Below, in pieces: positions 141 to 17,259 of a stretch of 48,190 nucleotides of DNA. How positions within the stretch are numbered: the stretch's first letter is position 1; each line of letters opens with the position of its first letter. Source of the DNA: Aquidulcibacter sp. (GTDB taxonomy: Bacteria; Pseudomonadota; Alphaproteobacteria; Caulobacterales; Aquidulcibacteraceae); assembly GCA_027532555.1 (NCBI GenBank), contig JAPZTJ010000035.1, positions 1-48,190 on the forward strand, in the 5' to 3' direction. The notes below the pieces were generated by a model. That model was given only the letters and a program-made list of their open reading frames with translations, was not told the DNA's origin and ran no database searches. The translations under genes were made by a program, and so were the position numbers.

Positions 141-212
141 ACAAAGAAACTGTTAGAAACGCGAAACGATCTATGCAACGAAATATGCTAGATGCAGCCA
201 ATCATGAAGTAT

Positions 213-245: not shown

Positions 246-248
246 TTT

Positions 249-1274
249 ATGGCTGAAGCTCTTCCCCTCCAATTGATGACGCTCTACCAGGAGCTCGTTG
301 ATACGCACTTGTCGCGTACGCCAAGCGCTGGCCCGACTGGTGCGCCATTCAAGCGAACAGTGCGGGGCAAGACTTATTGGTATGCCAGTGACCGAACCGG
401 CAGCCATGTGGTTCAGCGATACATTGGCCCTGACAATGAGGAGACCAACGCGCGGTTGCCCGAGATTGAAGCACGTCGCGAAGTGACAGAAGCGTTCGAG
501 AGGCGTTGCGGCGACATGGTTGCGCAATTGCGTGCAGCGCGACTGCCAACTCTTGACGCCGCTAGCGGCAGTTTGCTGGCTAGCCTTTCGGCTCAAGGCG
601 TTTTTGATTTGGGTGGCACTTTGGTCGGGACTATGGCCTTTAGGCTTTATGATGCTGAGCTTGGAAGACGCATCACGCGCATTGAGCCTGCGCTGACACA
701 AGACATCGACATTGCGAGCTATCAGAATTTATCGATAGCCCTGGCCGATGACGCAGCGCTAAGCTTGAAGGATTTACCGATGGCTCTCGCTAAGTTCGGC
801 TTAGAGGTTACGCCATCCATCGACCCTAAAGGCCGCAGCGGGCGCTGGCGGCGCAAGACCGGCGAGCCCGTGCTCGATTTTCTTGCCCCATCTTTTGAAG
901 AAGACCAAGATCTCGTCTGGCTTGAAGCTTTAGGGGTGTGGGCGCAAGGCTTGCACTATCTGAACTATTTGTTGGCCGACCCCATTCCTGCTGTCGGCCT
1001 TTATCGCCAAGGCGTGCTCGTCCGCATTCCCCGGCCTGAGCGATTTGCCATTCACAAGCTTATTGTTGCCCAACAGCGCACCGGAGCCGGTATTGCGAAA
1101 CGCCGAAAAGACTTGGGCCAAGCCCAAGCTCTGATAATATCATTGGCTGACGACAGGCCAGCAGAGTTGAAGCAGGCCTATGTAACGGCAATGGAGCAAG
1201 GTCCGTCATGGCGGGAAGCCATTGGCGCATCGCTAGCGATGGTTGGAGATGAGGCGCGCGCAGTTCTCGAGTAG
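249..1274 (+). CDS. GSU2403-type nucleotidyltransferase-fold protein
   Basis: A 341-aa protein whose centre carries a nucleotidyltransferase signature: a GGTL loop (about residues 122-125) followed by DIDIAS with the paired catalytic aspartates (about 153-155), and a third acidic residue in PVLDFLAP (about 204). This matches the GSU2403 family (Pfam NTP_transf_8), related to nucleotidyltransferases found in toxin-antitoxin and abortive-infection modules. The real substrate is unknown. The ATG at 249 is the first start after the palindrome at 213-245. No partner gene is present directly upstream, where an IS21 element now sits, so an accessory gene may have been lost. Family call is by motif; a role in defence is inference. 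Confidence 0.7.
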   Translation: MAEALPLQLMTLYQELVDTHLSRTPSAGPTGAPFKRTVRGKTYWYASDRTGSHVVQRYIGPDNEETNARLPEIEARREVTEAFERRCGDMVAQLRAARLPTLDAASGSLLASLSAQGVFDLGGTLVGTMAFRLYDAELGRRITRIEPALTQDIDIASYQNLSIALADDAALSLKDLPMALAKFGLEVTPSIDPKGRSGRWRRKTGEPVLDFLAPSFEEDQDLVWLEALGVWAQGLHYLNYLLADPIPAVGLYRQGVLVRIPRPERFAIHKLIVAQQRTGAGIAKRRKDLGQAQALIISLADDRPAELKQAYVTAMEQGPSWREAIGASLAMVGDEARAVLE

Positions 1275-1334
1275 TACTCATTAAATATGCTTGGACGTGG
1301 CGTTTAGCCAAGTGCGCGACCCAAGCCTAGGCGC

Positions 1335-1363
1335 AAAAAAAGGCGAAGCTGTTAGGCTCCGCC
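1335..1363 (-). terminator. Rho-independent terminator for leftward transcription
   Basis: On the minus strand, arms GGCGGAGC and GCTTCGCC (one mismatch) enclose a 6-nt loop and are followed by seven T residues. It would end transcripts of the leftward vapC-side genes and the TIR relic before they run into the nucleotidyltransferase. Confidence 0.65.
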
Positions 1364-1370
1364 ATCGGGC

Positions 1371-1450
1371 GGTTTACTGCTCTGCAGTGGCCCTAACCGC
1401 GCTCGATGCTTAAAGCCGGGCGGCTTGCTGGCGTATAGGGTGCGCTACTG
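1371..1450. repeat. Dispersed ~80-bp repeat B, copy 1
   Basis: Shares a long block with 20511-20590 in the same orientation, including the core CTGCAG(T/C)GGCCCTAACCGC and a following GATGCTTAA. The identity is high in the core and fades at the 3' side. No ORF explains it. Its nature (IS scrap, recombination site or structured element) is unknown. Confidence 0.6.
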
Positions 1451-1657
1451 GCCACAGCCTGTCGTCTTTCCGCCGACAACTAAGACATCGAACGGCTTCC
1501 GTGGAAGTTCAGCAATCAAAGCAATCAATCTGTCTGCATACTCTTGTGCGCAGGCCCACATCCCACCAGACCTTGAAGCCTTGGGCCTCAAACGCCTCCA
1601 CGAACAGCTTCGCGCGCGCTTGGTCCTCACCTTATCGGAGAGGAAGGTGTCGGTCAT
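1445..1657 (-). pseudogene. Frameshifted TIR-domain protein remnant
   Basis: No single frame gives a full domain, but joining frames on the minus strand gives MTDTFLS, then GEDQARAKLFVEAFEAQG and FKVWWDVGLRT, then QEYADRLIALIAE. That order and the FL-S, ED-A-A, WWD and G-x-Y segments match the N-terminal half of bacterial TIR domains, which cleave NAD+ or act as scaffolds in immunity. There are at least two frame changes and a stop near the first, and the C-terminal half is absent, so it should be inactive. It lies just downstream of the VapC-like toxin. Confidence 0.55.
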
Positions 1658-2067
1658 GGCAAGGTCTCAATTCCAAGCTTGTTCGCCACAGCATCCAGAG
1701 CCTTGTCTTTTGTGGCGAGTTCACCGCCTTGGCGCAGCGCCAATTCTAAATAAGCAGCATCATAAACGCTGATCCCGTGCGACTTGGCCAATGACAAAGT
1801 CTCGTGCCAAGCCTTGGCAACTCCAACGTCGTCGGTTTTGATTGGAAGGGCTGCTAGGAGGGCCAATCGGATCGCACAATCACTTTCGTTGATTCGGCCA
1901 CGGCGTTGCGCCATCGTCATCACATTGCCTACTTCCCAATACCAAAGGGCGGGGACGATAGCACCGCCATCACGAACGCGGTCCAGCACAGTGTCGGCCT
2001 CTGGGCTGGCTTCATCTTCAAAGCACCATGCCATCGCGAGCGAACAATCAAGGATCAACGCCTTCAC
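1654..2067 (-). CDS. vapC: VapC-type PIN-domain toxin
   Basis: A 137-aa PIN-domain ribonuclease, the usual length for VapC toxins. The metal-binding acidic residues are all present: Asp7 (LILDCS), Glu45 (WYWEVGN), Asp103 (VYDAAYLELA) and Asp121 (ATKDKAL). VapC toxins cleave tRNA or rRNA and are neutralised by a cognate antitoxin. The start overlaps the upstream antitoxin stop by four bases (ATGA), giving translational coupling and fixing the ATG at 2067. The gene appears intact. The exact RNA target is not predictable here. Confidence 0.85.
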   Translation of the reverse strand: MKALILDCSLAMAWCFEDEASPEADTVLDRVRDGGAIVPALWYWEVGNVMTMAQRRGRINESDCAIRLALLAALPIKTDDVGVAKAWHETLSLAKSHGISVYDAAYLELALRQGGELATKDKALDAVANKLGIETLP

Positions 2068-2300
2068 TTGCGACCCTCGTCGCGCAAGTCTTTCCAGTCT
2101 GCCTGTAAGGTCGTGCCCACCCGCAACGCTTTGAGCCGGTCAATTATCGCGTCCACGTCGTTACGCTCTGCGACGTCTGCCCTTACAAGCCGCGCGACGG
2201 CTTGGCCGTGGCGGGTAATCACGATGCTCTCGCCAGCCTCAACTTTGTCGAGCAAAGCGGAAAGATGCGTTTTGGCTTCAAATGCCCCGACGGTGATCAT
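2064..2300 (-). CDS. vapB: Phd/YefM-type antitoxin
   Basis: A 78-aa antitoxin of the prevent-host-death/YefM fold: MITVGAFEAKTHLSALLDKV followed by GESIVITRHGQAVARLV is the typical N-terminal DNA-binding part, and the C-terminal helix would thread onto the PIN toxin. It precedes and overlaps the toxin by four bases. Earlier in-frame ATGs exist at 2318 and 2306, but a GGAG ribosome-binding site lies about 7 nt before the ATG at 2300, so that start is preferred. Autorepression with the toxin is the rule for the family; a direct repeat at 2316-2335 is a candidate operator. Confidence 0.8.
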   Translation of the reverse strand: MITVGAFEAKTHLSALLDKVEAGESIVITRHGQAVARLVRADVAERNDVDAIIDRLKALRVGTTLQADWKDLRDEGRK

Positions 2301-2315
2301 AGCCATGCTCCATTC

Positions 2316-2335
2316 CAACCAGAAATTTCAACCAG
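2316..2335. promoter_or_regulatory. Direct repeat upstream of the antitoxin, candidate operator
   Basis: CAACCAG occurs at 2316-2322 and again at 2329-2335, 13 bp apart, immediately upstream of the antitoxin start (read as CTGGTTG on the coding strand). Phd/YefM antitoxins bind closely spaced repeats at this position. The call rests only on position and repetition. Confidence 0.3.
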
Positions 2336-2371
2336 TTTAAACCATTTTTGCTTATCGGGCAACGCAACAAC

Positions 2372-2525
2372 AAAGCCACAGTAACGTCCATCATTGCCCG
2401 GTGTATTCTATATCTCTGGTACGATCGGTTTCTTGAAGGCGGGCCTGAAGCGCTGGAAGCCAAGTTATCTGCACCAAACCGGTACAAGTCCTGCTCTGCC
2501 ACCTGAAATTCGGGCCATGGTAAAT
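2372..2525 (+). pseudogene. Transposase helix-turn-helix remnant (IS3/IS481-like)
   Basis: One frame reads ILYLWYDRFLEGGPEALEAK, which resembles the second helix-turn-helix of IS3/IS481-type transposases (LYRWYDRYxEGGxEALxDR). A shifted frame then gives ALPPEIRAMV, corresponding to the following WNRIPxEVR segment. There is no start, a frameshift and no catalytic core, so this is a fossil scrap. The rest of 2320-2740 holds no supportable gene. Confidence 0.4.
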
Positions 2526-2744
2526 TAGAGTTTTCCAGTTATTGAAGTGCACCCATTGGTCGTCCTCAGGTTCGCTTGTTCCAGCAAACCCGAGCCTCAC
2601 CCGCAGACCGATCAACGGCCACCACCATAATCCCGGCTGCTAAAGCGCTTTTGAAGTCGCGCAGCCGGCATAAGGGCTCCGTCGAGCTACACTGCGACAT
2701 GGGTCGTCACCTCTCGATGTCCCGTCGACCAACGCTACGGCCGG

Positions 2745-2780
2745 TTGACTCGTGCTGTGATTGGTCATAATAAATGACCA
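2745..2780 (+). promoter_or_regulatory. Promoter with GntR-type operator, site 1
   Basis: A -35 hexamer TTGACT (2745-2750) is followed at 17 bp by TAATAA (2768-2773). The palindrome TGGTCATAATAAATGACCA (2762-2780) covers the -10 region. Near-identical palindromes occur at 5582-5600 and 13496-13514, each on the -10 region of a gene in the same block, which makes this a likely binding site for the GntR regulator encoded at 11623-12321. Binding here would block RNA polymerase. Confidence 0.7.
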
Positions 2781-2798
2781 TATTGACAGAGGGTGGGT

Positions 2799-5405
2799 AT
2801 GCAGGTGATTTTTGGCAAATCGCGATCCTTGGCTGGCATACCCTCCAACCGGTGGCGACACCCGGCCTGCAAGTGGCTCCAGATAGGCGCGCACGGCGTT
2901 TGGATCGCGGTAACGCTGGTAGCAGTTCAAGGATGCGGCGGCGGTGGCGGCAGTATCGCCAGCCCGCCATCGCCGCCGTCAGTCTCGCCTCCACCTCCAC
3001 TTCTACCTCCACCCCCACAGAGCCCTCCACCACCTGGTGCCGGATTGAGCTGGCGCGGTGCGTGGGCGGTGCAGGGCCAGGAGGCGGTCGTGCGAGGCGT
3101 GGCACCGGCACCGGACGATGGTGTCTATATCGTTGGATCATTCCGCAACACCCAGCCCCTGTTGGTCGGCACGCTCAGCGCTTCATCAAGCGGCGGTGCC
3201 GACGGTTTCATCGCACGACTCAACGCGGATGGGACGCCGGTCTGGTTGCGGTCTTTTGGCGGAGCCGACGATGACTTCGCCTTCGATGTGGACAGTGATG
3301 CCGGCGGCGCTGCCTATTTAACGGGACGTGTCAGAGGCGCAGTTACCATCGGCCCGACCAGCCTGAACGCCAGCGGAGGCGACAGCATAGTGGTGAAATA
3401 CACGTCCGCTGGACAGGTCAGCTGGGTCCGGGCGGGAGCAGGCTCCGGCAGTGCGCTCGGTAATGAAATCGCAGTTGCCGATGATGGATCATCTGTCTCG
3501 GTTGGGGCCTTTGGGGGCGCAATCGATTTCGGATCCGGTGTGAGACTTGCCGCGCCTGCGACGACGTTCGAGGACGCCTATGTCGTTCGCTATTCGGCCA
3601 ACGGAACACCGGAATGGGCGCAGGCGATACGAGCTCCCGATACCGTCAGTGAAGGGACGGTATCGGCGCGGGGCGTCGCTTTTGACGGTCAAGGCCGCGT
3701 GCTGGTTGCAGGGTCGTTCCAAGGCAGTGTGAGCGCCGGTGCACAGAGCGTGACCAGCGTGGGCGGGAGCGACTGTTTTGTCAGCGCGTACAGCGGCAGC
3801 GGAGCTCTTCAGTGGCTCCGCCGCTTCGGCGGTGCGGGTGCCGACGTGTGCCGCGGCATCGGCGGTGATCCGTTCGGCGCGGTCCTGATCGCGGGGACAT
3901 TCGAGGCCACAGCCGCGTTCGGAACGACCAGTCTTGCGTCCGCCGGGGGCAGGGACGTGTTCGTGGCGTCGCTCAATGACGCTGGGGAGCCGCAGTGGGC
4001 GCGCGGCATCGGCGGGGCCGGAGCGGAAGAAGGGGCAGAACTCGAAGTCGGCGCTGGCGGCGAGGCAACGGTCGCCTTTGATTTCTCCGGCTCAGTCGCC
4101 CTGCCGGATGGCACGAATGTGACATCCGCGGGCGCTCGCGATCCCCTTCTGCTGCGGTTTGGGACGTCCGGCCAACTGGACTGGCGGCTGACCGGCGGCG
4201 GGCCGGGCGACGATGTAACCTATGCCGTTGCTATCACGGCATCGGACGCCGTTCACACCGTCGGCACCTTTGGCACTGGTACGGGAGCAACCAGCATTAG
4301 TTTCGCGCCGTTTTTGCTGAATGCCGCGCAGCAGGCGGGTTATGTGGCGAGAGCGGGCGTGAACGCCAGCCCGCCGCCGCCGCCGCCGCCGCCGAGCTCG
4401 CTCAACTTGGCGGCTGCAGCTGACTATGCCTTCGCCAATGGCACGCGAGCCCTGATCATCAAGCAGAACGGCCAGGTACTGCTTGAACGCTATGGCGGGA
4501 TAGGCTCGGCCTCACGAGTGGAGAGCCTCGCGTCCGGCACGAAGAGCTTTTCGTGTGCCCTGTATGCGGCGGCGGAAGACGAAGGCCTAATCAACATCGA
4601 TGAATTGGCCTCCATCGCCATCACGCCCTGGCGGCCTGGTGGATCCGCCCCTGAAAACGGTTCCAAGCAGCTGATCCGGGCGCGCGATCTAATCGCCCTT
4701 TCGCATGGGCTGAGCGCCGCCGGGGCTGGTGGGGCATCCCTCAACAGCGTCGACAGTTATCTCCAAGGGATCAATGCGCGGTCCGTTTTCGCGCCTGACG
4801 TCCATGCGATCTACAGTGCCAATGGCTTTCAGGCCTTCAACGCCTACTTCGAGCTGAAAGCCGGCGGGACGCTTGCAGCCAGCGGCGACATCACCGGTGG
4901 GCGCGATCCCTTGACGTATCTGCAGCAAAGGGTGCTAACACCCATCGGCTCGAACGTTGGCTCCTGGCAGCGCGACGTAAAGAACAAGCCGAATTTCGGC
5001 GGCGGTGCCGCCATGACGGCGTCAGACTGGCTGCGATATGGCCAGTTCATCTTGCAGGAGGGCGCTTGGAACGGTGTCCAGCTGGTGTCTGCCGCGCGAA
5101 TCCGCCGCTGCGGCTCCTATCAGTCGCCAGCCTTCCTTGGTTACGGTCTTGGCTTCTGGCTCAACCGGCCGGTGGGGTCGAGCTATACCGAAAACGAAGA
5201 CGGCATCCCATGGCCAATCGAGGTACGCACGCGCCTTGCTGCGGGCGGTCAGATCATGCCTGCAGCCCCCGCCGACACCATGATTTCCTATGGCGCGGGG
5301 AACATGAAGATGTTCATTATTAAGTCCCGAGGCCTTGTGGTGGTCAAGCTTGCGGGGTCTGCAGACGATAACGAGATGTTTGCCCGGCTGTTTTCGACAC
5401 CGTGA
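2799..5405 (+). CDS. Exported beta-propeller / SxxK serine hydrolase fusion
   Basis: An 868-aa protein. An N-terminal hydrophobic segment ends in AVQGC, a probable lipobox, so it is likely a lipoprotein. A proline-rich linker follows, then about seven to eight ~50-residue repeats (GGADGF-ARLN-G-W-RSFGG pattern) typical of SBBP-type beta-propellers, a polyproline spacer, and a C-terminal beta-lactamase-family domain. That domain has Ser579-x-x-Lys582 (ASGTKSF) and Tyr672 in YSANGF, as in class C beta-lactamase/EstB/NylB-type esterases and amidases. The C-terminal domain is clearly paralogous to the protein at 12318-13490. The ATG at 2799 is preferred over an in-frame GTG at 2793 because AGAGGG lies 6 nt upstream. 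The substrate is unknown; the operator at 2762-2780 predicts GntR control. Confidence 0.75.
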   Translation: MQVIFGKSRSLAGIPSNRWRHPACKWLQIGAHGVWIAVTLVAVQGCGGGGGSIASPPSPPSVSPPPPLLPPPPQSPPPPGAGLSWRGAWAVQGQEAVVRGVAPAPDDGVYIVGSFRNTQPLLVGTLSASSSGGADGFIARLNADGTPVWLRSFGGADDDFAFDVDSDAGGAAYLTGRVRGAVTIGPTSLNASGGDSIVVKYTSAGQVSWVRAGAGSGSALGNEIAVADDGSSVSVGAFGGAIDFGSGVRLAAPATTFEDAYVVRYSANGTPEWAQAIRAPDTVSEGTVSARGVAFDGQGRVLVAGSFQGSVSAGAQSVTSVGGSDCFVSAYSGSGALQWLRRFGGAGADVCRGIGGDPFGAVLIAGTFEATAAFGTTSLASAGGRDVFVASLNDAGEPQWARGIGGAGAEEGAELEVGAGGEATVAFDFSGSVALPDGTNVTSAGARDPLLLRFGTSGQLDWRLTGGGPGDDVTYAVAITASDAVHTVGTFGTGTGATSISFAPFLLNAAQQAGYVARAGVNASPPPPPPPPSSLNLAAAADYAFANGTRALIIKQNGQVLLERYGGIGSASRVESLASGTKSFSCALYAAAEDEGLINIDELASIAITPWRPGGSAPENGSKQLIRARDLIALSHGLSAAGAGGASLNSVDSYLQGINARSVFAPDVHAIYSANGFQAFNAYFELKAGGTLAASGDITGGRDPLTYLQQRVLTPIGSNVGSWQRDVKNKPNFGGGAAMTASDWLRYGQFILQEGAWNGVQLVSAARIRRCGSYQSPAFLGYGLGFWLNRPVGSSYTENEDGIPWPIEVRTRLAAGGQIMPAAPADTMISYGAGNMKMFIIKSRGLVVVKLAGSADDNEMFARLFSTP

Positions 5406-5563
5406 CGCGAGCGATGCGCCAGGGAGGACCAATGGCTGTGCAAAGCGAACGGAAGCTGGTGCCTGAAGACATGGCACACGCAATCCTGCGCAAGGATGGG
5501 TAGCAGTGTAACCACCGGGTCTGCGGCCGCCGAGACGTCACTCCGGCAGTTTGGCTTCCATTC

Positions 5564-5600
5564 TTGACATAGCCCTCAAAATGGTCATTATTTATAACCA
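5564..5600 (+). promoter_or_regulatory. Promoter with GntR-type operator, site 2
   Basis: A consensus -35 TTGACA (5564-5569) stands 18 bp before TTATTT (5588-5593). The palindrome TGGTCATTATTTATAACCA (5582-5600) sits over the -10, with one mismatch between arms. It matches sites 1 and 3 in both arm sequence and placement. It drives the TonB-dependent receptor and the overlapping hydrolase gene. The preceding stretch 5406-5563 holds no gene. Confidence 0.7.
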
Positions 5601-5641
5601 TAAATAAAATCGGTCTAGAGGTGGCCCGGGGAGGACATGAG

Positions 5642-7843
5642 ATGAGCATAGGTGTTAGGAGAGCCATTCCAGTGGGTGTCGTAATGGCAGCCCTTGTCCC
5701 GATGACACCAGCGCTAGCGCAGGTGGGTCAGTCACCTACAAGCAGTTCTGAGGCACCAGCGCAGAATGCGGATCGGGTTTCAAACGAGCAGCTGGAAACG
5801 ATTGTGGTGACGGCGCGTCGCCGCGCCGAGCCCCTGCAAGCTGTGCCAAGCTCCGGAATCGCTCTGGACGGGACGGCTATCCTTGATCTTGGGATTCGAG
5901 ATGGGCGTTCGTTGATCGCTGAAGTCCCGGGTGCCTTGGTCATTGATACTGGACCATCGTTTGACAACGAGATTATTGTCCGGGGTGCCGGCGCCGGTCG
6001 GCAGACAAATGCAGAAGTGGCGGCGGGTCTGTATCGCAATGGTGCCTTCATTGCCGGGGGAAATCTAGGCGGTCGAAACTTCAGCACGCTCGACTTTTTC
6101 GACGCTGAACGGGTTGAAGTCCTGCGCGGACCACAAGGAGCGCTGTTCGGGCGCAATGCTGTGGGTGGTGCCATCAACATCGTGTCGGCTCGCCCGACCT
6201 CGGACCGCAGTCTTGCGTTGCGGGCGTCTATTGGCTCCAAGGAAGCGTTCGAGGGATCCGTGATCGGCAATCTGCCGCTCGGCGAAACGTTCGCAGTCCG
6301 TACCGGTTATCTGCATCGCCGACAGGATGACGGCTTCTACATTAATGCCGACGGCTCGGCGCTGGATGTCAGTGAGCTCAATGGCGGGAGACTCGGCATG
6401 CGCTGGACTCCGAGCGAGGCCGTGGATGTCCGTTTCACGGTTGATCAGCTCGACGAGACCGGACCCAGTTTTGCGGTGTTCTTCTACAACAAAGTCGGTG
6501 GGCAGGATCCCTTCCGCAGGAACTTCCTCTGGCCATCGACCTTCACTCGTACTGAGCTTACCGGGATTCTTGAGGTGGACTACCGACTGGGCTGGGCAAC
6601 CCTGTCGTCTGTCACCTACTTGCGAAACCGCGACGCACGACGCGCTGACGAAATATCAAGCTCGCTGTTCTTCCCACCGTCTCCTACCACAGTTGGACCG
6701 AACTTCCGGGCAGTACAGACTGACGATTTCCAACGGACCGGCCAAGAACTGCGCCTAGCTTCACCGGATGAAACTAGGCTGACCTGGCTGGTGGGTGCCG
6801 AATACACCGTCATGGAGGACTTCACGCTCACCCAGAACCTCGGTGCAATTGCGCCCCAACTCAACAACACCAATCGCGCAACCAGCGACGACCAGTCCAC
6901 CAGCGTCTATGGGGCTTTGGGCTTCGACGTGACAGACCGACTGAATGTCTCAGCAGAGCTGCGCAACAGCCGCGACAGCAAGGATATCCTGCTAGATATC
7001 GACCGAATCCGCGCCGGGACCGGGGCACCGATCAAGCTCGTCCAGCCCTACGCTGACAGCTGGACCAATACGTCCTGGGTGTTGTCGGCCAGCTATCAGG
7101 CCCTGCCGACTGCTTCGATCTATGTACGCGCTGCAAAGGCCTTTCGGCCTGGCGGTTTCAATGACGATCCAGGCGGGCCGGACAACACCTTCTCTGTGCC
7201 CTACGAGCAAGAGGAAACACTGGCTTTCGAGAGCGGTTTCAAGTCCGAGTGGTTCCAGCGGCGCTTGAGGTTCAACTTCGCGATCTTCTCGTCGGAGACG
7301 CTTGGGCTTCTGGAGAACCAGAGCCAACAGTCCGTGCAGCAAGCTCGTACAGTGCGATACATCACCAATATCGGCGACATTCGTCACAGCGGGATCGAGG
7401 CAGAGGTGAGCAGCCTCGTGCCGCTTCGGACACTGGATGCGCGGCTTCGAATTTCCTTAGCCGGGGCCCACAACACCAGCCGCTACACCTCTGGCCCCAA
7501 TACCGGGCGGGAGGTGTCCCGGATCCGGCCCTCCACCCTGTCCGCCAATGCGGCCATGACATTCAATGTATCTGGCGCGTTCCAGCCATTTGTCCGGCTC
7601 AGCTATCGCAGCGAGCAGGGTGGGCTTCAGAACACCAGTCTGCTGCGACCACAGGACGACATCCAGAATCTTGATCTGGCCGTCGGCGTACGCGCAGACG
7701 ACTGGAGTGTGACGCTGCGGGTTCGCAATGCCACAGACGCGGAATACGACCTCGACCGGCTGACATCAAACACGCCGGGCGTGGAAGCCTATCGCCGCAA
7801 TCAGCCGCGCACCTTCGCCTTGGAGGTGGCCCGTGAGTTCTGA
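5642..7843 (+). CDS. TonB-dependent outer-membrane receptor
   Basis: A 733-aa outer-membrane receptor. It has a signal peptide ending near ALAQ, a TonB box (ETIVVTARRR), a plug domain (IRDGRSLIAEVPGALV, then the typical VEVLRGPQGALFGRNAVGGAINIV) and a beta-barrel ending in an aromatic residue (LEVAREF). Such receptors import bulky or scarce substrates using TonB-ExbB energy. The ATG at 5642 follows GGGGAGGA at 5628-5635; an upstream in-frame GTG at 5621 is rejected. The 3' end overlaps the hydrolase gene by 11 bp, so receptor and enzyme are co-transcribed. Its substrate is presumably what the surrounding hydrolases act upon. No FecR-like signalling domain is seen. Confidence 0.9.
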   Translation: MSIGVRRAIPVGVVMAALVPMTPALAQVGQSPTSSSEAPAQNADRVSNEQLETIVVTARRRAEPLQAVPSSGIALDGTAILDLGIRDGRSLIAEVPGALVIDTGPSFDNEIIVRGAGAGRQTNAEVAAGLYRNGAFIAGGNLGGRNFSTLDFFDAERVEVLRGPQGALFGRNAVGGAINIVSARPTSDRSLALRASIGSKEAFEGSVIGNLPLGETFAVRTGYLHRRQDDGFYINADGSALDVSELNGGRLGMRWTPSEAVDVRFTVDQLDETGPSFAVFFYNKVGGQDPFRRNFLWPSTFTRTELTGILEVDYRLGWATLSSVTYLRNRDARRADEISSSLFFPPSPTTVGPNFRAVQTDDFQRTGQELRLASPDETRLTWLVGAEYTVMEDFTLTQNLGAIAPQLNNTNRATSDDQSTSVYGALGFDVTDRLNVSAELRNSRDSKDILLDIDRIRAGTGAPIKLVQPYADSWTNTSWVLSASYQALPTASIYVRAAKAFRPGGFNDDPGGPDNTFSVPYEQEETLAFESGFKSEWFQRRLRFNFAIFSSETLGLLENQSQQSVQQARTVRYITNIGDIRHSGIEAEVSSLVPLRTLDARLRISLAGAHNTSRYTSGPNTGREVSRIRPSTLSANAAMTFNVSGAFQPFVRLSYRSEQGGLQNTSLLRPQDDIQNLDLAVGVRADDWSVTLRVRNATDAEYDLDRLTSNTPGVEAYRRNQPRTFALEVAREF

Positions 7844-8915
7844 CAAATCCGGTGGCGGTCGCTTTGGTGGCCCCACAACCCTGAACCGCAAGCATGTCTT
7901 GCGGCTGATGGGCGCGGCAACTCTGGCGGGCCTTGCTCCGAGCCGCCAAGCTCTTGCGGAGACAGCCATTGCTCCCCAGACGCGGACCGCGCTGGCTAGT
8001 GGGGTCTTGCGGACGCCCGACACGGCGTTTGCAGGGCTGGAGGGCTACCCATACGCGCCAAATTATAGATCCGTCCGCCATCCGGCGCTCGGGGAACTAG
8101 CGCTGCACTATCTGGATGTCGGCCCGCGCGACGCCTCCCCTGTCGTGTTGCTGCACGGCCAGCCAAGCTGGTCCTATCTCTATCGGAAAGTTATTGTGCG
8201 ACTGCTGGCAGCGGGGCATCGGGTGATCGCGCCGGATATGATTGGCTATGGTAGGTCCGACAAGCCTGCGGCCCGGTCGGACTACAGCTACCAGCTGCAC
8301 CTCGATTGGTTGACTGAATTCCTGTCCGGCCTGGGGGGTAATCTCACTCTGGTCGTGCATGATTGGGGCGGACTGCTTGGGCTGCGCATCGCCGCAGAAA
8401 ACCCCGGCCTGTTCGTGCGACTTGTCGTGCTGGATACCAGCCTGAATGACGGCACTGATCGCGAGTCCCCGCAGTTCACGGCAGGCTTTGACCGCTGGCT
8501 TAAGATCCTAGAGCATGCGCCTGAGCTCAGATTTTCTGCCGTTATCGAGGCGCAAACAGAAACCACGCTCACGCCGGGCGCGCTTGCAGGCTATGACGCG
8601 CCGTTCCCGGACCGATCCTATCAGACAGGTGCTCGTGTGATGTCGAGCTTTATCCCGCGCACACCGGATATGGCGCAAGCGCGTGAGAATGGCCTCGCCC
8701 GAGCTCGGCTGCGCGACTGGCAGACCCCGGTTCTGATCGCATTCTCCGAGGGCTCGGCCCGCACTCACCCTGGCCAGCATGCGCTGCTCTCAGGATTATT
8801 CCCGGCCAGCCGCATCTGGCGGGATGCGACCATTGCTGGGGCGCATCACTTCCTGCCAGAGGATCGAGGCGAAGACGTTGGTGACCTGATCGCTACGTTC
8901 TGCGCTGCCACCTGA
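7833..8915 (+). CDS. Exported alpha/beta hydrolase resembling haloalkane dehalogenases (subfamily I)
   Basis: A 360-aa protein with an N-terminal signal (NRKHVLRLMGAATLAGLA, RK pair, possibly Tat) then a fold close to HLD-I dehalogenases: LLHGQPSWSYLYRK (oxyanion loop), VIAPDMIGYGRSDKP, and VVHDWGGLLGL with nucleophile Asp177 followed by Trp178, a halide-binding position. The catalytic histidine fits His339 in AGAHHFLPED. The usual catalytic acid (FSDxDP) is changed to FSEGSA, with Ser308 at that place, so dehalogenase activity is doubtful; Glu306 might substitute. Starts at a GTG that overlaps the receptor stop, preceded by GGAGGTGG. Cytoplasmic relatives lack an export signal, so its place beside a TonB receptor suggests periplasmic action on an imported compound. 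Confidence 0.75.
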   Translation: MSSDKSGGGRFGGPTTLNRKHVLRLMGAATLAGLAPSRQALAETAIAPQTRTALASGVLRTPDTAFAGLEGYPYAPNYRSVRHPALGELALHYLDVGPRDASPVVLLHGQPSWSYLYRKVIVRLLAAGHRVIAPDMIGYGRSDKPAARSDYSYQLHLDWLTEFLSGLGGNLTLVVHDWGGLLGLRIAAENPGLFVRLVVLDTSLNDGTDRESPQFTAGFDRWLKILEHAPELRFSAVIEAQTETTLTPGALAGYDAPFPDRSYQTGARVMSSFIPRTPDMAQARENGLARARLRDWQTPVLIAFSEGSARTHPGQHALLSGLFPASRIWRDATIAGAHHFLPEDRGEDVGDLIATFCAAT

Positions 8916-8957
8916 CAACCGACCTTGTTGTTCATCTTGAAAGGGATCTGTCCACGG

Positions 8958-10295
8958 TCAGGTTGCCTGGTCGAGAAGAGCGACAATAGCTTTGCGAAAG
9001 CCACCGGCAGCGGCCGCCACGATCTGCGGATTGGTGGCGAGTGGCAGCCGGTCTGTCTCTATATGGTGCAGGCGTCCGGCTCCGAACACACCTAACGCTC
9101 GAGTATAGCCTTCGGCGAGGATGTGGGCGAGTTCACCGGCCGCTCCAGCCTCAACCGGATAGGGTGCCTCAAGCCCCGCCTGACCGGCAAAGCACTTCTG
9201 GAGCACCGGCAGCATCGAGCGCGGTCCCACCAGGAAACGTTGTGGGTCAGCGCTTGGGAGGGCGCGCAGTGGGCCAAGATCGTGAAAATCGGTCGTTGCG
9301 ATGTTGGCACCCAAATGCACCCATAGCGCGACCTCTTGCGGACGGGGCGCGGCCGAACTCTTCAGGAACGCGTCCATGCCTTGATTGTCATACTCATGGC
9401 CGGAGGCTGATACGAACAGGAGACTCCGCTGCGGCCAGCGGGTAGCGGCCCAGCGAGCCAGGTCAAGGAAGATTGCCACACCAGGACCGCGCTCTCCGGC
9501 ACAGACTGTCCAGCCGGAGCGCGGGGTTGATACCACCAGCATCGGGCCGATCCCGGGCTTTCGTGCGATCAGTGTTTGCGCGGTCCGGCGACTACCTGTT
9601 CCCGTGATGGTGAGTGTCAAATCTGAACCGCGCCGGATCAACTCCACCAGCGGTGCTAGCGGTCGTGGTCCCACCACGGCCATCGGCACCGACACAGCCG
9701 GCGCATCAGCCGGTGCGTTGAGAACGATGGTCTCGCCAGTTGGCCCGTGCGTGACTGCCACTACAGCCCGCGCCCCCGCCGCGACGGCAGCGCGAACTGC
9801 CTCGATTGTTGTCGGCGTCATGAGAGCGGAATGGCGCCGGTGTGGCAGCATGACGACCGCGATCCTTCCTGCAACTCGGGCGAGGTCCGAGGGATCCGCC
9901 ACCAGAGCGGCTGGGGCCGTAATGCCGCCCTCTGGGGTTGGCACCACGATTGCTTGTGGTTCCACCGCTACCCTTCTGTTCTGCGCCACCAGGTCGGCGC
10001 GGTCGACCTCAAAGGCGGGGGCCTGAACTGCTGCATAGCTGACCGTGAAGCCCAGAGCGGCCAATTGCTCCGCCATCCATAGGCGTACTGCCTCATCGCC
10101 CGGTCCGCCGGACCGCTTCGTCCCGAACCCGTCATAGCGGGCAAGATCAGCAGCAATCGCGGCCGGATCGCTGCCTGCGTCGGCAGCGGCCGGACTGCCG
10201 ACTGTTGCACAGGCTGATGCCGGCAGCGGCGCGCCCAGCGCCGCGCCCAGCAATGCGGCCGGAGCAATAAGGGCGTCGCGACGGGCCAGCGACAT
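8958..10295 (-). CDS. Tat-exported M28-like protein with altered metal site (B)
   Basis: A 445-aa protein with a signal peptide (ARRDALIAPAALLGAALG) and a peptidase M28/PA-insert layout similar in length to aminopeptidases. The strand that normally carries the HxD zinc ligands reads VVSTPRSGW, and the GADDN segment reads GERGPGVA, so at least two usual ligands are missing. An ASGHEY segment, an HLGAN segment and a C-terminal HHIETD remain. The start ATG at 10295 overlaps the previous stop (TGATG), which excludes the longer reading from 10328. It is the last gene of a four-gene coupled operon with 10295-11626, the GntR gene and an SxxK hydrolase. It may be a non-peptidase binding protein or use a different mechanism. 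Confidence 0.65.
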   Translation of the reverse strand: MSLARRDALIAPAALLGAALGAPLPASACATVGSPAAADAGSDPAAIAADLARYDGFGTKRSGGPGDEAVRLWMAEQLAALGFTVSYAAVQAPAFEVDRADLVAQNRRVAVEPQAIVVPTPEGGITAPAALVADPSDLARVAGRIAVVMLPHRRHSALMTPTTIEAVRAAVAAGARAVVAVTHGPTGETIVLNAPADAPAVSVPMAVVGPRPLAPLVELIRRGSDLTLTITGTGSRRTAQTLIARKPGIGPMLVVSTPRSGWTVCAGERGPGVAIFLDLARWAATRWPQRSLLFVSASGHEYDNQGMDAFLKSSAAPRPQEVALWVHLGANIATTDFHDLGPLRALPSADPQRFLVGPRSMLPVLQKCFAGQAGLEAPYPVEAGAAGELAHILAEGYTRALGVFGAGRLHHIETDRLPLATNPQIVAAAAGGFRKAIVALLDQAT

Positions 10296-11626
10296 CAACG
10301 GGCCTCCGTTTCCAGTGCGAGGATGCACTGTTGTAATGCCCGTCCTACTGACTCAAGGAGTTCAGGCCCTGTTACGAATGGCAGATCGTTTGGTGCATGG
10401 AAATAGGCGTGTGCGCCCTCGAACCCAAAAGCGCGGTAGCCGGCCTCGAACATCAAAGCGAGCTCACCGCGTGCCGTGGTTGCCCGGCGGGGCGTCAGGT
10501 TCTCCACGCCTGCAAACCGGCTCTGGAGGAGAGACAGCAGGCGATCATCATTGGTCAGGAGTTGGGTACCGAGCTGTCGCCGCCCGTTGGCGCGCAGCCC
10601 CGTAGGACCGCGCTCGAACCCGTAAACAGCGATAGATGCGCCAAGGTGGATCCAGGCCAGAGTTTCAGTCGGGGAGGGCGCAGCATCCTCCAGATAGCTC
10701 TTCTTACCCGCACCATAGAGTTCATGGCCCGATGAGGCGATGAAGGTCGCACTGACCGGGCTCTCGCCAGCCCGGCCCGCCATCCAGCGCGCCAACCCCA
10801 GAAACAGCGCCACGCCGGGTCCTCGTTCGCCCGCCGAGGCAAACCAGGCGCTGGTCGGTGTTGAGACGACAATCCGGCGGGGCCCGCGTTCCAGCCGCCC
10901 TTCGACCTTGTAGGCTTGCGCATCCGGGGTCCTGGTCGATTCGATCAAGAGCTGCGTCTGAGCCCCGCGCACCGCGGCGGCGCGCAGGAATTCCATGTGT
11001 TTGCTGCCCACCAGCATGACAGGCAGCGGCAGTGGTGTGCGTAATCCGTGACCAAACAACTCGCCGCTCGGAGTCACCGTCACGGCCACAACAGCCCGTG
11101 TGCCTCGATCCGAGAGACGCGTCAGATTAGCGGAGAGGCGGGCAAGACCGCCAATACCGTCTACTTCCAGACAAGCGATGCTCCCGGGGCCTGCCGCCTC
11201 GGCCAAACGCAGGGGGCCACTCACTCCGTCCGCGCCAGTTGGAACCGGATCCCACAATGGATAGGCGTCCAGCGGTGCGAACTTCATGCCGTCGACCGCC
11301 AGCCTGTGTGCGGTCAAGTCATGTCGCTCGAACCCGAACGGGAGCCGCCGCACGACATGACCAGCCCGCTCCAGCTCCCGCGCAATCCAATCGGAGCGGG
11401 CAAGGTCGCCGGGAGTGCCGGTGCGATGGCTGTCATGGCTGGCGTAATATTCCAGATCAGCATAGAGAGCCGCACCTGAGAGCGGGTCAGAGGGGTTCAT
11501 GTTTGCTGCAGCGGCGGCTTGCCGCGTCGCACAGGCGGACACCAGACTAGGCAAGCCGACCAACACCGCCCTACGTGACAGGCGCAGCAAGCTGGGATTA
11601 GACAGGGGTGCCAAGGTTGGTGTCAT
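10295..11626 (-). CDS. Tat-exported M28-like lipoprotein with altered metal site (A)
   Basis: A 443-aa paralogue of the downstream gene. The N-terminus has a twin-arginine motif (SRRAVLVG) followed by a lipobox-like LVSAC, so it is probably a Tat-exported lipoprotein. The M28 core is recognisable (VVSTPTSAWF, ERGPGVALFLGLARW, SSGHELYGAG, WIHLGASIA, and HAYFHAPNDLP near the C-terminus), but the HxD and GADDN ligand motifs are replaced exactly as in its neighbour. The shared replacements mean the change is conserved, not random decay. Its ATG overlaps the gntR stop by four bases. Role inferred from context: processing or binding of a substrate in the periplasm. Confidence 0.65.
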   Translation of the reverse strand: MTPTLAPLSNPSLLRLSRRAVLVGLPSLVSACATRQAAAAANMNPSDPLSGAALYADLEYYASHDSHRTGTPGDLARSDWIARELERAGHVVRRLPFGFERHDLTAHRLAVDGMKFAPLDAYPLWDPVPTGADGVSGPLRLAEAAGPGSIACLEVDGIGGLARLSANLTRLSDRGTRAVVAVTVTPSGELFGHGLRTPLPLPVMLVGSKHMEFLRAAAVRGAQTQLLIESTRTPDAQAYKVEGRLERGPRRIVVSTPTSAWFASAGERGPGVALFLGLARWMAGRAGESPVSATFIASSGHELYGAGKKSYLEDAAPSPTETLAWIHLGASIAVYGFERGPTGLRANGRRQLGTQLLTNDDRLLSLLQSRFAGVENLTPRRATTARGELALMFEAGYRAFGFEGAHAYFHAPNDLPFVTGPELLESVGRALQQCILALETEAR

Positions 11627-12321
11627 GGATCGACCGAAGGGAAGAGCTGCGGAAAGGCATGAAGAGCATCGGCTAGAGTGGCATAAGCGACTTCGCGTGC
11701 ACCATCTCCTGCCAGTCCTGGATCACGGGCAGCTAGACCATTGGACAGTTTCCGCCAGGCCACATAATGGCGCATCGTGTCGTGCACCTGCGAGACGGCG
11801 AAGTAGCTGATGTGCCAGGACGTACGCTGCATACACTCATCGAACAGTCCGCAAACATAGTCCGAACGCGACGCGGCCGCGAGCAGATTTAGCGCGGCAG
11901 AGGCGTTGCGCATGATGGTGCGGGTAATCTGCATGTCGCCATGCGCTTGTTCGATCAAGGGTAGGATCGTGGCTATGCTGGCGCAGGCGCTCTGGATTGT
12001 AGCCGGCGAGGCCCGACGTGCCGCCAGTCGGGCAACGAGACCGTAGACTGCAGCCCGAGCCTCGAACATCTCCACGATCTCATTGGTCGTTGGCTCGGCG
12101 ACTTTCGCCCCCCGATAGCTTTCGATCGAGACAAGACGATCCGATTGTAGCAGACGCAGAGCCTCGCGCACCGGCCCGCGACTGGTGCAAAACCGGGCAC
12201 CGACATCGCGCTCGACGATCCGCTCACCGGGTTTGAGATTGCCCGCCAGAATATCATTGCGCAAGGCCCGCGCGATCTGTTCGGGGGAAAAGCGGGAGGG
12301 ACGCGGGTGCGGGTTGGTCAT
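11623..12321 (-). CDS. FadR-subfamily (FCD) GntR transcriptional regulator
   Basis: A 232-aa regulator. Residues about 8-75 form a GntR winged helix (FSPEQIARALRNDILAG, LKPGERIVERDV, SRGPVREALRLL), and the rest is an all-helical FCD effector domain with a possible metal-binding histidine set. FCD regulators usually repress catabolic genes until a pathway acid or metabolite binds. It is embedded in the operon, with ATGA overlaps on both sides. Three palindromes TGGTCAT-N5-ATGACCA on the promoters of this block, one of them in front of its own operon, are its probable operators. The effector is unknown. Confidence 0.85.
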   Translation of the reverse strand: MTNPHPRPSRFSPEQIARALRNDILAGNLKPGERIVERDVGARFCTSRGPVREALRLLQSDRLVSIESYRGAKVAEPTTNEIVEMFEARAAVYGLVARLAARRASPATIQSACASIATILPLIEQAHGDMQITRTIMRNASAALNLLAAASRSDYVCGLFDECMQRTSWHISYFAVSQVHDTMRHYVAWRKLSNGLAARDPGLAGDGAREVAYATLADALHAFPQLFPSVDP

Positions 12322-13490
12322 GGCGATGGTCCAGGCGCTGGCGACGGACCCGGCGCGGCAGCGGGTTCAGATCCGGACAGCAGGTGATTGAAGAATACGG
12401 TGTCATAAGCAGAACCCGCGAGCTTGACAATGACAAGTCCGCGCGAGCGGATAATGAACATCTTCATGTTCCCGAGTCCCCATGCGATCAACATGTCCTC
12501 GGGTGCCGACGGTACGATGTTGCCGCCATCTGCCAACTGTGCGTGGATCGGTGCTTCCAGCGGCAGGCGATCCTCCCCGGCAGCATAGCTGTCGAGGACT
12601 TGCCGGTTCAGCCAGAAGCCAAGACCATAGCCTGCAAACGCGGGTGAGGGAGAGGTCCCGCACCGCGCAATCAGATCCCCCGGGATCAGTTGTTTACCCC
12701 GCCACTGCCCCCGTTGCATTATGAACTGGCCATAGAGCAGCCAGTCCCGGGCCGTGAACGAAGCGCCGCCGCTGAGATTGGGTTTGCCACGTGCATCGCG
12801 CAACCAGGCCCCAGTCCGGGCGCCGATCCTGGAGAGCACGCGGTCCTGCAGATAGGCAACCGGATCGCGCCCGCCGACAATGGTCCCATCCGCACCGATG
12901 ACACCGCCGGTCTTTAGTTCGAAATAGGCGTTGAAGGCCTGGAAGCCGGTTGGTCCGTAGACGGCTGCCGTGCCTGGCGGGCGCGCAACCGGGGCAACCA
13001 AGGCCTGGTCGTAAGAATCAACCCGGTTCAACTCGAGTCCCACAGCCTGCATGGAGCCGAGACCATGCGAGAGCGCGATTAGGTCGCGCACGCGGATGTC
13101 GGACTTCTGTGACTGCTCCGTGCGCCAAGTGGAAATGGCTGTCGCAGCAGGCTCGTCAAGATCAATCAGTCCGTCTGCCTGGGCTGCTGCGGCGATCGCA
13201 CACGCAAAGCTCTTGGTGCCGGAGGCCAAAAACTCGACCCTGTCCGCCGCGCCCGGCGCCGCATAACGCTCCAGTATGATCCGGCCATCCTGCTGGATGA
13301 TCAGCGCCCGGGTTCCGGTTGCCATTGCGTGGCGAGCGGCCGCTTCCAGTCCGACCGGTGATACTGGTCGGGAAACCGGCGGCATTCCCTCAGTCGACGT
13401 CTGTCGGGACACTGACGGGGCCGCGCACGCCCCCGCGATTGCGAGCAGCAGACACACCGATGCCCGGGCAATGGTTTGACAATTTGTCAT
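12318..13490 (-). CDS. Exported SxxK serine hydrolase (beta-lactamase/esterase family)
   Basis: A 390-aa hydrolase matching the C-terminal domain of the 2799-5405 fusion over its length: LASGTKSFACA with Ser90 and Lys93, YGPTGFQAFNAYFELK, and a shared C-terminal stretch GNMKMFII(R/K)SRGLV. It lacks the propeller. The N-terminus (ASVCLLLAIAGACA) is a signal peptide, perhaps lipidated. The tail is Pro-rich (PGPSPAPGPSP). Longer in-frame starts at 13580 and 13502 lie beyond or inside the operator, so the ATG at 13490 is chosen; it has no Shine-Dalgarno and begins six bases past the operator, suggesting a leaderless or very short 5' end. First gene of the operon, overlapping gntR by four bases. 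Confidence 0.7.
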   Translation of the reverse strand: MTNCQTIARASVCLLLAIAGACAAPSVSRQTSTEGMPPVSRPVSPVGLEAAARHAMATGTRALIIQQDGRIILERYAAPGAADRVEFLASGTKSFACAIAAAAQADGLIDLDEPAATAISTWRTEQSQKSDIRVRDLIALSHGLGSMQAVGLELNRVDSYDQALVAPVARPPGTAAVYGPTGFQAFNAYFELKTGGVIGADGTIVGGRDPVAYLQDRVLSRIGARTGAWLRDARGKPNLSGGASFTARDWLLYGQFIMQRGQWRGKQLIPGDLIARCGTSPSPAFAGYGLGFWLNRQVLDSYAAGEDRLPLEAPIHAQLADGGNIVPSAPEDMLIAWGLGNMKMFIIRSRGLVIVKLAGSAYDTVFFNHLLSGSEPAAAPGPSPAPGPSP

Positions 13491-13514
13491 CAATTTGGTC
13501 ATAATTAATGACCA
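13476..13514. promoter_or_regulatory. Divergent promoter region with GntR-type operator, site 3
   Basis: The palindrome TGGTCATAATTAATGACCA (13496-13514) is perfect in its 7-bp arms. For rightward transcription TTGACA (13476-13481) stands 18 bp before CATAAT (13500-13505), placing the operator on the -10 as at sites 1 and 2. The same site lies just upstream of the leftward hydrolase-gntR operon, so a bound dimer could control both directions, including the regulator gene itself. Confidence 0.7.
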
Positions 13515-13582
13515 TACAGTTCTGGGCTGGACATTCAAGCCCAAAAAAATAGGATGCAAGCCGCTCCAAGGAGGTACCATCG

Positions 13583-14947
13583 ATGACTATGCCTGTCGAC
13601 CGCAACCTAGAGCCAGATGAGATCGCCCCGTTTCGCGGCCTCAGTCGGCGGTCCGTGACTGGCTGCCTTGCCGCTGCGCTGACGTCCATGCCGTGTGCAT
13701 CAGCGGCGAGGCCGATGCAGAGTGTCGATGCGGCATTCGATTACCTCTATCCCCTGTTCGAGTTTTCTCGCGCGCTGCGCAGGTCCACCCGGCCACTCAA
13801 TCAGATCACCCATCGCACCACGCTCAGCACCGCTGCCCATCGGGCCGTGACGATGCCGAACAATGACTGCCTCTACTCCTCCGCTTTTCTTGATCTAGCG
13901 GCCGGGCCAGCGCTGATCACCACCAGGGACGAGACCCGACGCTACTGGTCATTGGCCTTCATGAGCGCCCACACCGATAACTTTACGATCCTGGGCACAC
14001 GGACTACCGGGGGACGTGGCGGGCGCTATCTGCTGGTGGCTCCGGACTGGCGCGGACCGATTCCACGCGGCGTTTCCCTTCTCCGCGCTCCGACGACCGA
14101 CGTCTGGATGCTGGGGAGGGTTCTGGTTACAGGTGAAGGGGATCTCCCAGCAGCTCGTGCTGTCCAGCAAGGGTTGGGACTGGAAATGCCGCCCGCACCA
14201 CCCGAGCGATGGCTCCGGGCCGGCGCGTTGGCTGTGAACAAACCGGAAGACATCCTATCGGTCGGAAACGAACTCCTTGGCCGAAGCCCAAATGCTGCCG
14301 ACACACGCCGGGGTAGACGCCACGCAGCCTGGGGTGTGATACCCGGCCAGCTTGATGCAGCCGCGCGCCTGTCCACGGCGCAGCGAGCCGCGTGGCAAAA
14401 CGCGATACTGGAGGGGCTTGACAGATTGAGGGCGACCTATCTGGCGCGGCCGGTTGGCCAGAGCTGGGCCCGCTTGGGGTCGCGAATTGGGAGTATCCGT
14501 GCCAGCGACACCGAGCGGGCTGCTGTCGCGTTGGGCGGGCTGGCAGCGCTGCCACAGGAGGAGGCCGTATACTTTACGACCGGGCAGGACGACCAGGGTT
14601 CGGCCCTCGACCCGGCTGGCACTTACGAGATGATCATTCCTACGGACTTACCCTTGCGCGGCTTCTGGTCACTGTCGCTCTACGAGCGACACACGGATGG
14701 TCGGTACTTCTTCGTTGACAATCCGATCGGCCGCTACGCGATTTCAGACCGGACCGGCGGCGTACTGCGTCGGTCGGATGGCGCCATCGTGGTGCGTATC
14801 CAGCGGACAGCTCCGCCGCCAGGGATGTCGAACTGGCTCCCGTCGGCTCCTGGCCCGATGTTGCTTTCGTTCAGAGCGTACCTCCCGGGCGATGGCATGT
14901 TGCGGACTGACTGGTTACCTCCTCCAATTCGTCGGACTACGGGATAG
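13583..14947 (+). CDS. Tat-exported DUF1254/DUF1214 protein
   Basis: A 454-aa protein with an N-terminal twin-arginine signal (LSRRSVTGCLAAALTS). The DUF1254 part includes DYLYPLFEFSRALR and the conserved MPNNDCLYSSAFLDLAAGP with YWSLAFMSAHTDNF; the DUF1214 part includes GFWSLSLYERHTDGRYF and NPIGRYAISDRT. The family is widespread next to catabolic genes but its biochemical function is not established. AAGGAGG at 13567-13573 fixes the start. It is divergent from the hydrolase-gntR operon and shares operator site 3, so it belongs to the same regulon. Confidence 0.8.
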   Translation: MTMPVDRNLEPDEIAPFRGLSRRSVTGCLAAALTSMPCASAARPMQSVDAAFDYLYPLFEFSRALRRSTRPLNQITHRTTLSTAAHRAVTMPNNDCLYSSAFLDLAAGPALITTRDETRRYWSLAFMSAHTDNFTILGTRTTGGRGGRYLLVAPDWRGPIPRGVSLLRAPTTDVWMLGRVLVTGEGDLPAARAVQQGLGLEMPPAPPERWLRAGALAVNKPEDILSVGNELLGRSPNAADTRRGRRHAAWGVIPGQLDAAARLSTAQRAAWQNAILEGLDRLRATYLARPVGQSWARLGSRIGSIRASDTERAAVALGGLAALPQEEAVYFTTGQDDQGSALDPAGTYEMIIPTDLPLRGFWSLSLYERHTDGRYFFVDNPIGRYAISDRTGGVLRRSDGAIVVRIQRTAPPPGMSNWLPSAPGPMLLSFRAYLPGDGMLRTDWLPPPIRRTTG

Positions 14948-15415
14948 TGTCCCGATGGGAGGGGAAGCTTTGGCTGGGCCAGCGTGATTCCTGTGAGGGC
15001 CGGGCTGATCACGCCATGGGTACTACCGAGAGCATGACGAAGGGAACATGGCTGACCGGGGCCATGGATCCAAGCGTCATGTATCGGGCACGCCGGATGG
15101 CCCATTCATCGTTAGCGCCGAGCGCCCCTTTGATGGGCGAAGTTGCAAATCCACTGCCGAGAATTTGGCACTTAAATTGGCCGGCTCAGGGCCATTTGAA
15201 ACGAACGCCGTTCGCGACGATTAGCGCCTCATTGAAACCAATTGCCTGAACCATGGCTTAGATAGCGACAATCCTTCATGGAAGTGCGCTTCAAAGGCAG
15301 GATCTATGGTGGCATTCGAGGCCCGAGCTCCACTAATCGGACCAGCAGAAATCGATCAAGTTCTGCCAAAATCGGACCTCTAAAGCGTCTATTTTTCTGT
15401 GAATAGGTACATGCT
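14948..15415. other. Intergenic region without a supportable gene
   Basis: Short ORFs on both strands give low-complexity translations with no recognisable domain, and none has a convincing ribosome-binding site. The region marks the drop from the GC-rich block to the more AT-rich debris region and may contain an old junction. Confidence 0.4.
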
Positions 15416-15593
15416 CTAGTCCATCCCCATCTCCCCCAACACCCAATCAGCCGCCGCCTGGGCTTTGCTCGCAGCCGTCAGAAACGAAGATGGATTATCG
15501 CCCAGCGCTTTGAGCCATCCATCAATATAGGCGGCATGATCTTCAAGGTGATCAGCAGGAAGGCCAATGTGCGCACCGATAAAGGCACTAGCT
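15416..15593 (-). pseudogene. ArdC C-terminal fragment (copy 1)
   Basis: The last ~58 codons of an ArdC-type antirestriction protein (AFIGAHIGLPADHLEDHAAY, then IDGWLKALGDNPSSF and ADWVLGEM) nearly identical to the end of the longer copy at 17524-18140. Upstream the homology stops abruptly at a CTAG tetranucleotide, where repeat A begins. The reading frame runs on into the repeat, giving a chimeric ORF that is unlikely to be a real protein. Confidence 0.75.
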
Positions 15594-15960: not shown

Positions 15961-16181
15961 ATCTTGCGAGCCGTGGCCTGCCGATCAATGGAGTGCAGAC
16001 TAGAACACCAACTGACCTGATTCCCCAGGTGATTGCTTCGCTTGGCTGAGATCCTCTTAATCTCCGAACACATTACTGCTTAAATGGTTTTTGGTGCATG
16101 GCGCAAAGCTAATCCCTCTTGACACAGCCAAAGGCGCAAAATCGCGGCATAGATCAATAAGGTGAGAAAACGCTCAGCAAA

Positions 16182-17233: not shown

Positions 17234-17259
17234 AGCTATAGTCCTCCGCGATTTCATAA

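Follow-up and report, generated by a model that had tools for sequence, protein, structure and literature searches.

A likely self-contained GntR regulon with widely spaced operators in a hydrolase and TonB receptor block of Aquidulcibacter sp.

Introduction

Three matching palindromes lie in front of genes for hydrolases, a TonB-dependent receptor and a GntR-type regulator in Aquidulcibacter sp., which raises the question of whether this regulator controls the whole block through them. The window (the whole stretch of DNA analysed, 48,190 nucleotides) had been given an initial annotation that described the block as a single regulated pathway with a self-controlled repressor. Judging from the sequence comparisons reported here, the GntR/FCD regulator encoded within the block (11623-12321) probably uses the three palindromes as its operators; it would repress all eight genes and be released by a ligand.

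Gene content of the block

The block consists of eight genes, one of which encodes a regulator. On the plus strand, the first gene (2793-5405, likely start ATG 2799) encodes a fusion of an SBBP/DUF5122-type beta-propeller and a class C beta-lactamase-like serine hydrolase; it has proline-rich stretches and looks to be an unusual fusion. The TonB-dependent receptor gene (5642-7843, plus strand) has ATG 5642 preceded by GGGGAGGAC, the open reading frame being listed from GTG 5621, and overlaps the open reading frame of an alpha/beta hydrolase of the haloalkane dehalogenase family (7833-8915, plus strand, 360 residues). Four open reading frames on the minus strand overlap end to end and therefore look like one operon, hydrolase-gntR-M28-like-M28-like. 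These encode a class C beta-lactamase-like serine hydrolase (12318-13490, likely ATG 13490), the GntR regulator with an FCD-type domain that is the proposed binder of the palindromes (11623-12321, 232 aa), the second copy of an M28-like protein (10295-11626), and the first copy, a PA-domain/M28-like protein (8958-10328). The eighth gene encodes a DUF1254/DUF1214 protein (13583-14947, plus strand).

The regulator has an N-terminal GntR winged helix (PF00392, 57.2 bits, cut-off 27) and a C-terminal FCD domain that passes at the borderline (PF07729, 24.6 bits against a cut-off of 24.3). The metal ligands of FCD domains are Asp and His; inspected by eye, the window protein does not clearly show the D..FH and H...H pattern that is usual for them. 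An AlphaFold2 model from the single sequence had a pLDDT of 55, too poor for use.

Exactness and rarity of the palindromes

The palindromes are 19 bp long at all three sites and were recovered where they had been reported. Sites 1 (2762-2780, TGGTCATAATAAATGACCA) and 3 (13496-13514, TGGTCATAATTAATGACCA), the latter between the divergent operons, match TGGTCATN5ATGACCA with 0 mismatches, and site 2 (5582-5600, TGGTCATTATTTATAACCA) has one mismatch in an arm. It was also correct that the window holds no other near-exact copy: with up to 3 mismatches allowed there are 4 matches, the fourth of which (12315) has 3 mismatches. Shuffled versions of the window gave a mean of 1.66 matches at this threshold and, because 4 matches were reached by 5 of 100 shuffles, only near-exact matches in the window are counted. 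Rfam gave no match within the window.

A whole-genome scan, proposed with the initial annotation, found that random genomic copies are not common. In the organism's own genome (G000; 3,493,893 bases in 74 contigs, 3.49 Mb), there are 3 places at up to 1 mismatch, all within the block. At up to 2 mismatches there are 22 places (19 at exactly 2), and the reversed pattern has 2. By a longest-ORF rule, 16 of the 19 two-mismatch places are inside an open reading frame and 3 are outside, one of these straddling two ORF ends. Their arm complementarity is 5/7 in 18 and 6/7 in one, which is inside mutM. A genome-wide regulon was rejected on the basis of these places, with 16 in open reading frames and a full palindrome in none; the mutM copy (AGGTCATTTATAATGACCC) was rejected as a site, being coding.

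Exact copies occur in 6 of the 384 other genomes sampled from the class, and within the 60-genome family sample in G007, G043, and G037. Among the genomes with exact matches, two copies are present only in G007, taken to be A. paucihalophilus TH1-2 from its contig C81. Single exact copies in foreign genomes were rejected as homologous sites, all 8 of 8 being inside open reading frames of at least 403 codons.

Sites 1 and 3 precede serine-hydrolase genes that are paralogous (65.6% DNA identity over 550 columns, comparing the first window gene with the TH1-2 copy of the second), and the promoters of these genes might therefore have been copied, in which case the likeness of the sites would be the remnant of a duplicated promoter segment, or chance, without regulatory function. 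This is very improbable, since the likeness of sites 1 and 3 ends by eye at about 22 bp, with unlike flanks, site 2 serves an unrelated gene, and the score of the window in a blind search for repeated palindromes was reached by 0 of 100 shuffles.

Promoters at the palindromes

Each palindrome had been described as covering the -10 region of a promoter with a TTGAC(A/T) -35 box, and promoter-like boxes of this kind are found on the rightward side of all three sites. In a promoter scan of 2400-15100, the top two matches were TTGACA-18-CATAAT (13476-13505), with the -35-like box of the DUF1254 promoter at 13476-13481 on the plus strand, and TTGACA-16-CATTAT (5564-5591), with that of the TonB receptor promoter at 5564-5569, also on the plus strand. 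Both have their -10 inside a palindrome (3 and 2, respectively); the total of 4 promoter-like matches in this region is not above that of shuffles (mean 2.8). At site 1, the -35-like TTGACT of the fusion hydrolase promoter (2745-2750, plus strand) is 15 nt from CATAAT, as read by eye, this spacing being outside the range of the scan. The TTGAC boxes of these rightward promoters are 26-29 nt from the operator centre. The description fails on the leftward side of site 3, towards the gntR operon, where no TTGAC box was found.

The block's four apparent transcription units each start at one of the three palindromes, and there are no sites elsewhere in the own genome at up to 1 mismatch, which is the layout of local autoregulation. 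The sites may be real and their control partial, for example over the three rightward promoters only, leaving the gntR operon constitutive. The presence of TTGAC boxes on the rightward promoters only favours this reading, which is nevertheless rather unlikely: palindrome 3 ends 5 bases before the likely ATG 13490 of the leftward operon, therefore a bound dimer would cover the leftward start region. In addition, where a divergon has a single site, both operons are usually regulated by it, according to PMC4494728.

A small palindrome, TGACAATTTGTCA, adjoins site 3 at 13477-13489 and overlaps both the leftward operon's start codon and the -35 box upstream of DUF1254. TH1-2 has it too, and it might be an accessory half-site.

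A unit shared with A. paucihalophilus TH1-2

A 12.5-kb unit (2498-14990) is common to the window and A. paucihalophilus TH1-2, with 97.8% identity over 12,500 columns, and its flanks differ on both sides in TH1-2 (L040; G007:C81). Conservation of the palindrome in orthologous blocks is seen in TH1-2, the only close ortholog found, which keeps all three sites with 42 of 42 arm positions unchanged and two changes within the site 2 spacer; it does not extend to the more distant gntR-bearing loci, in which there is a different palindrome or none was found. Noncoding divergence between the window and TH1-2 is 5.2% (37 of 709 columns), and conservation of the sites is weak evidence because the chance that 42 unconstrained bases show no change is about 0.1. 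Within the block, gntR (11623-12321) is the most divergent coding gene in comparison with L040 (30 of 695 columns); the first M28-like gene differs at 16 of 1337 columns.

Of 101 relatives, only 2, namely the own genome and G007, encode the regulator at more than 90% identity, and the next best match by E-value among these relatives is 34% identical over residues 12-215. At E <= 1e-20, just 3 of the 385 class genomes have a match. No clean empty site of the island turned up; G002 matches the left flank (window 207-2507) and then diverges. There was no megablast match to the block in the plasmid collection. On the right, 15416-19889 contains Fic-family, HTH, and MPTase-PolyVal (zincin-like) genes. 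A repeat at 17385-17495 recurs at 29-140 and close to the termini of several further contigs, and together these features mark a mobile-element neighbourhood. The block is best explained as a self-contained unit for uptake and hydrolysis, which would move between genomes with its regulator and operators.

Related loci in other genomes

Matches to the M28-like protein were present in 24 of 101 genomes, including the own genome, and are often near GntR homologues. Seventeen loci, picked for an M28-like or GntR match, were fetched for comparison; 13 have a GntR match, all 13 of these have a TonB gene, and 11 have an M28-like gene as well. TH1-2 apart, the regulators compared are 21-29% identical to the window GntR over aligned columns, therefore this is a comparison between loci and not of close orthologs. 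In the literature searched, no description of a GntR/TonB/M28-like/DUF1254 locus family was recognised, and the family is apparently unnamed.

Several of these loci have palindromes of their own. The whole G076 genome contains two copies of ATTGTCGACAAT, both in the GntR locus, at the TonB/DUF1254 and M28-like promoters; 3 of 6 copies in G010 are on the GntR-locus contig and 1 of 2 in G033 is in the locus, and none of the remaining 5 genomes searched has a copy. With 1 mismatch allowed, TGTCAATNATTGACA occurs exactly twice in each of G089 and G095, where the copies are no more than about 9 kb from the gntR genes; a search of 6 further genomes gave none. In G057, ATTGTRYACAAT is present at two promoters, and G097 has TTGT-N3-ACAA sites. 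A Sphingopyxis plasmid locus (serine hydrolase, GntR, M28-like, TonB) carries ATTATCGATAAT twice, once at its divergent promoter and once at that of the TonB gene. Contig C53 of the own genome holds a related GntR locus (L082), with a 32-bp palindrome before the TonB gene; the window pattern is absent from this contig at up to 2 mismatches. This palindrome (L082:8680-8711) is perfect over its 32 bp, has a TTGTCGTCAATTTAAATTGACGACAA core by eye, and looks like two TTGTCGWCAA in tandem.

In the promoter regions of the 17 loci, leaving out the window, TTGT-N2/3-ACAA was found in 11 loci at 18 sites, one of which (L077:7769) is probably in a gene, compared with a mean of 0.40 and a maximum of 5 in 1000 shuffles; 6 of the 17 loci have none. 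Spacer counts peak at 2 (12 sites) and 3 (6 sites). Among 30 operator-gene pairs chosen by hand, TTGAC is 26-33 nt upstream of the operator centre in 7 of 12 TonB promoters (expected 0.065), in 0 of 15 non-TonB pairs outside the window, and in 3 of 4 window pairs, one of which is already among the TonB promoters. Both the TTGT-N2/3-ACAA pattern and the 26-33 nt range were chosen once some of the loci had been inspected, and the locus counts are not independent because several are from related genera (G031, G033, G048; G020, G032).

The blind search for repeated palindromes covered 18 loci with 100 shuffles each. Besides the window, the observed score was reached by 0 shuffles in L077 and L084, by 1 in L078, 3 in L124, 4 in L079, and 5 in L074; the L078 pair is GC-rich and not operator-like. 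In the remaining 11 of the 18 loci the score was unremarkable, being reached by at least 6 shuffles.

Because distant GntR loci often carry their own palindromes at corresponding promoters, together with the TTGT and TTGAC patterns, it is likely that the block is a single GntR regulon. The proposal of one block under its own GntR has good support in that near-exact sites are confined to the block and travel with it, and that related GntR/TonB loci have the same layout.

Half-site and spacing of the operators

All six half-sites read TGGT or ACCA and so have the TKGT/ACMA form. FadR-subfamily sites, according to PMC4494728, have TKGT/ACMA boxes in which 3 nt, or sometimes 2, separate GT from AC, with weak variation in this distance. 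The gap between GT and AC is 11 nt in all three window sites. The argument from the FadR family, as made in the initial annotation, therefore fits the half-site and not the spacing.

The same source links Arg at HTH position 28 to the G in TKGT. The window GntR has an Arg in helix 2 (ERDV), which suits TGGT, the equivalence of position being judged by eye. Of the 13 regulators to which TTGT sites were assigned, 8 have Gln at that position, and the GntR proteins of G020, G032, and Sphingopyxis also have the helix 2 Arg, without TGGT at the promoters examined.

In a tree of the regulators, those of G089 and G095, with a gap of 9 nt between GT and AC in their operator, form one clade (support 1.0), and the window protein groups with that of G097 (0.90), whose sites are 3 nt apart; deeper nodes are poorly supported. 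With this topology, either wide spacing would have arisen at least twice or such widely spaced sites are recognised in another way.

Sites of TetR- and MarR-type regulators often have wide spacing. The palindromes might be operators of a different regulator encoded elsewhere in the genome, for example one of these types, with GntR acting on other sites. In favour of this, an 11-nt gap is uncommon among FadR-type proteins, other families would be suited by a 19-bp palindrome that is AT-centred and widely spaced, and in a Novosphingobium plasmid locus (M28-like, DUF1254, TonB) the regulators are Lrp and TetR, with no GntR annotated. Such a regulator is improbable all the same. The own genome has no further full palindromes, therefore an outside regulator would serve only this mobile block, in which one of the genes already encodes a regulator. 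Within 1-16000 of the window TTGT-N2/3-ACAA is absent, and the only TGGT-N2/3-ACCA (9666) is inside a gene. At the corresponding positions of related loci there are GntR-type sites.

Returning to the block's own GntR as the binder, the GntR/TonB/M28-like/DUF1254 loci could be recurrent self-regulated cassettes, the regulators of which repeatedly changed their operator, both in sequence (TTGTCGACAA, TTATCGATAA, TTGT-N3-ACAA) and in spacing (GT to AC 2-3, 9, or 11 nt), and several, such as those of the window and of contig C53, could hence share one cell without cross-talk. This generalisation is tentative, with the chances somewhat against it. The related loci form a natural series for changes in the operator sequence and spacing of GntR proteins, and mark a recurrent gene group containing the M28-like family.

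Proposed regulation and substrate

In the absence of ligand, a dimer of GntR would occupy the -10 region at every promoter, blocking access of RNA polymerase. The units repressed in this way would be the fusion hydrolase gene, the TonB receptor/alpha-beta hydrolase operon, and the DUF1254 gene with the divergent hydrolase-gntR-M28-like-M28-like operon. The ligand, probably a breakdown product and often a carboxylate for this subfamily, would release GntR, and release would switch on all eight genes, including gntR. We infer GntR binding, repression, induction, and the substrate; that the protein would act as a self-controlled repressor rests on the position of the sites and on family precedent.

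From its genes, the block may import and hydrolyse an ester, an amide, or a peptide-like compound. Cyanobacterial aggregates were the source from which A. paucihalophilus TH1-2 was isolated (PMC5712168), and the substrate might therefore, as a guess, be an algal or cyanobacterial product. This would be a mobile catabolic island tied to one regulator and one operator, and promoter induction is thus a direct handle for finding the substrate.

Comparison with known systems

The 7833-8915 product matches haloalkane dehalogenases over residues 58 to about 356 of 360 (NF002043, 325 bits, cut-off 265). Where the aligned dehalogenases (6f9o, 4mj3, 5esr) have FSDSDP, it reads FSEGSA. The aspartate that we take to be the nucleophile and the histidine are kept, and the presumed catalytic-acid position is a serine. 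From these residues, this protein may have another activity.

A profile of the M28-like family matches M28 peptidases with a PA domain (3iib, E 2.8e-10; YwaD, E 3.1e-9). The positions that we take to be the zinc ligands of M28 peptidases, HxD, D, and EE, read by eye as TPRSGW, ERG, and HE in the window's M28-like proteins, and the chemistry is uncertain because these positions look replaced. Neither copy in the window passes the cut-off of any Pfam or NCBIfam model; with E values up to 1 admitted, weak Pfam matches to PA are found in 8 of 17 family members and weak M28 matches in 4 of 17. The family alignment (A1) has invariant ERG, HE, W.HLGA, and H...D positions. An AlphaFold2 model from the single sequence had a pLDDT of 36.

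BioR-type GntR sites have the form TTATMKATAA according to PMC4494728. This form is fitted by ATTATCGATAAT of the Sphingopyxis locus, although the genes differ, being those of a TonB receptor and hydrolases, and it is not the site of the window.

A further comparison is with FadR-subfamily GntR regulators such as FadR, PdhR, LldR, and GlcC. The window regulator has the same winged helix and an FCD-type C-terminal domain, the same TGGT/ACCA half-site, and a site adjoining its own operon. It differs from them in the distance between GT and AC, 11 nt compared with 2-3 nt, and in the weak FCD match. Overall, the regulation is likely to be of an ordinary kind, a self-contained GntR regulon, with an operator of unusual spacing.
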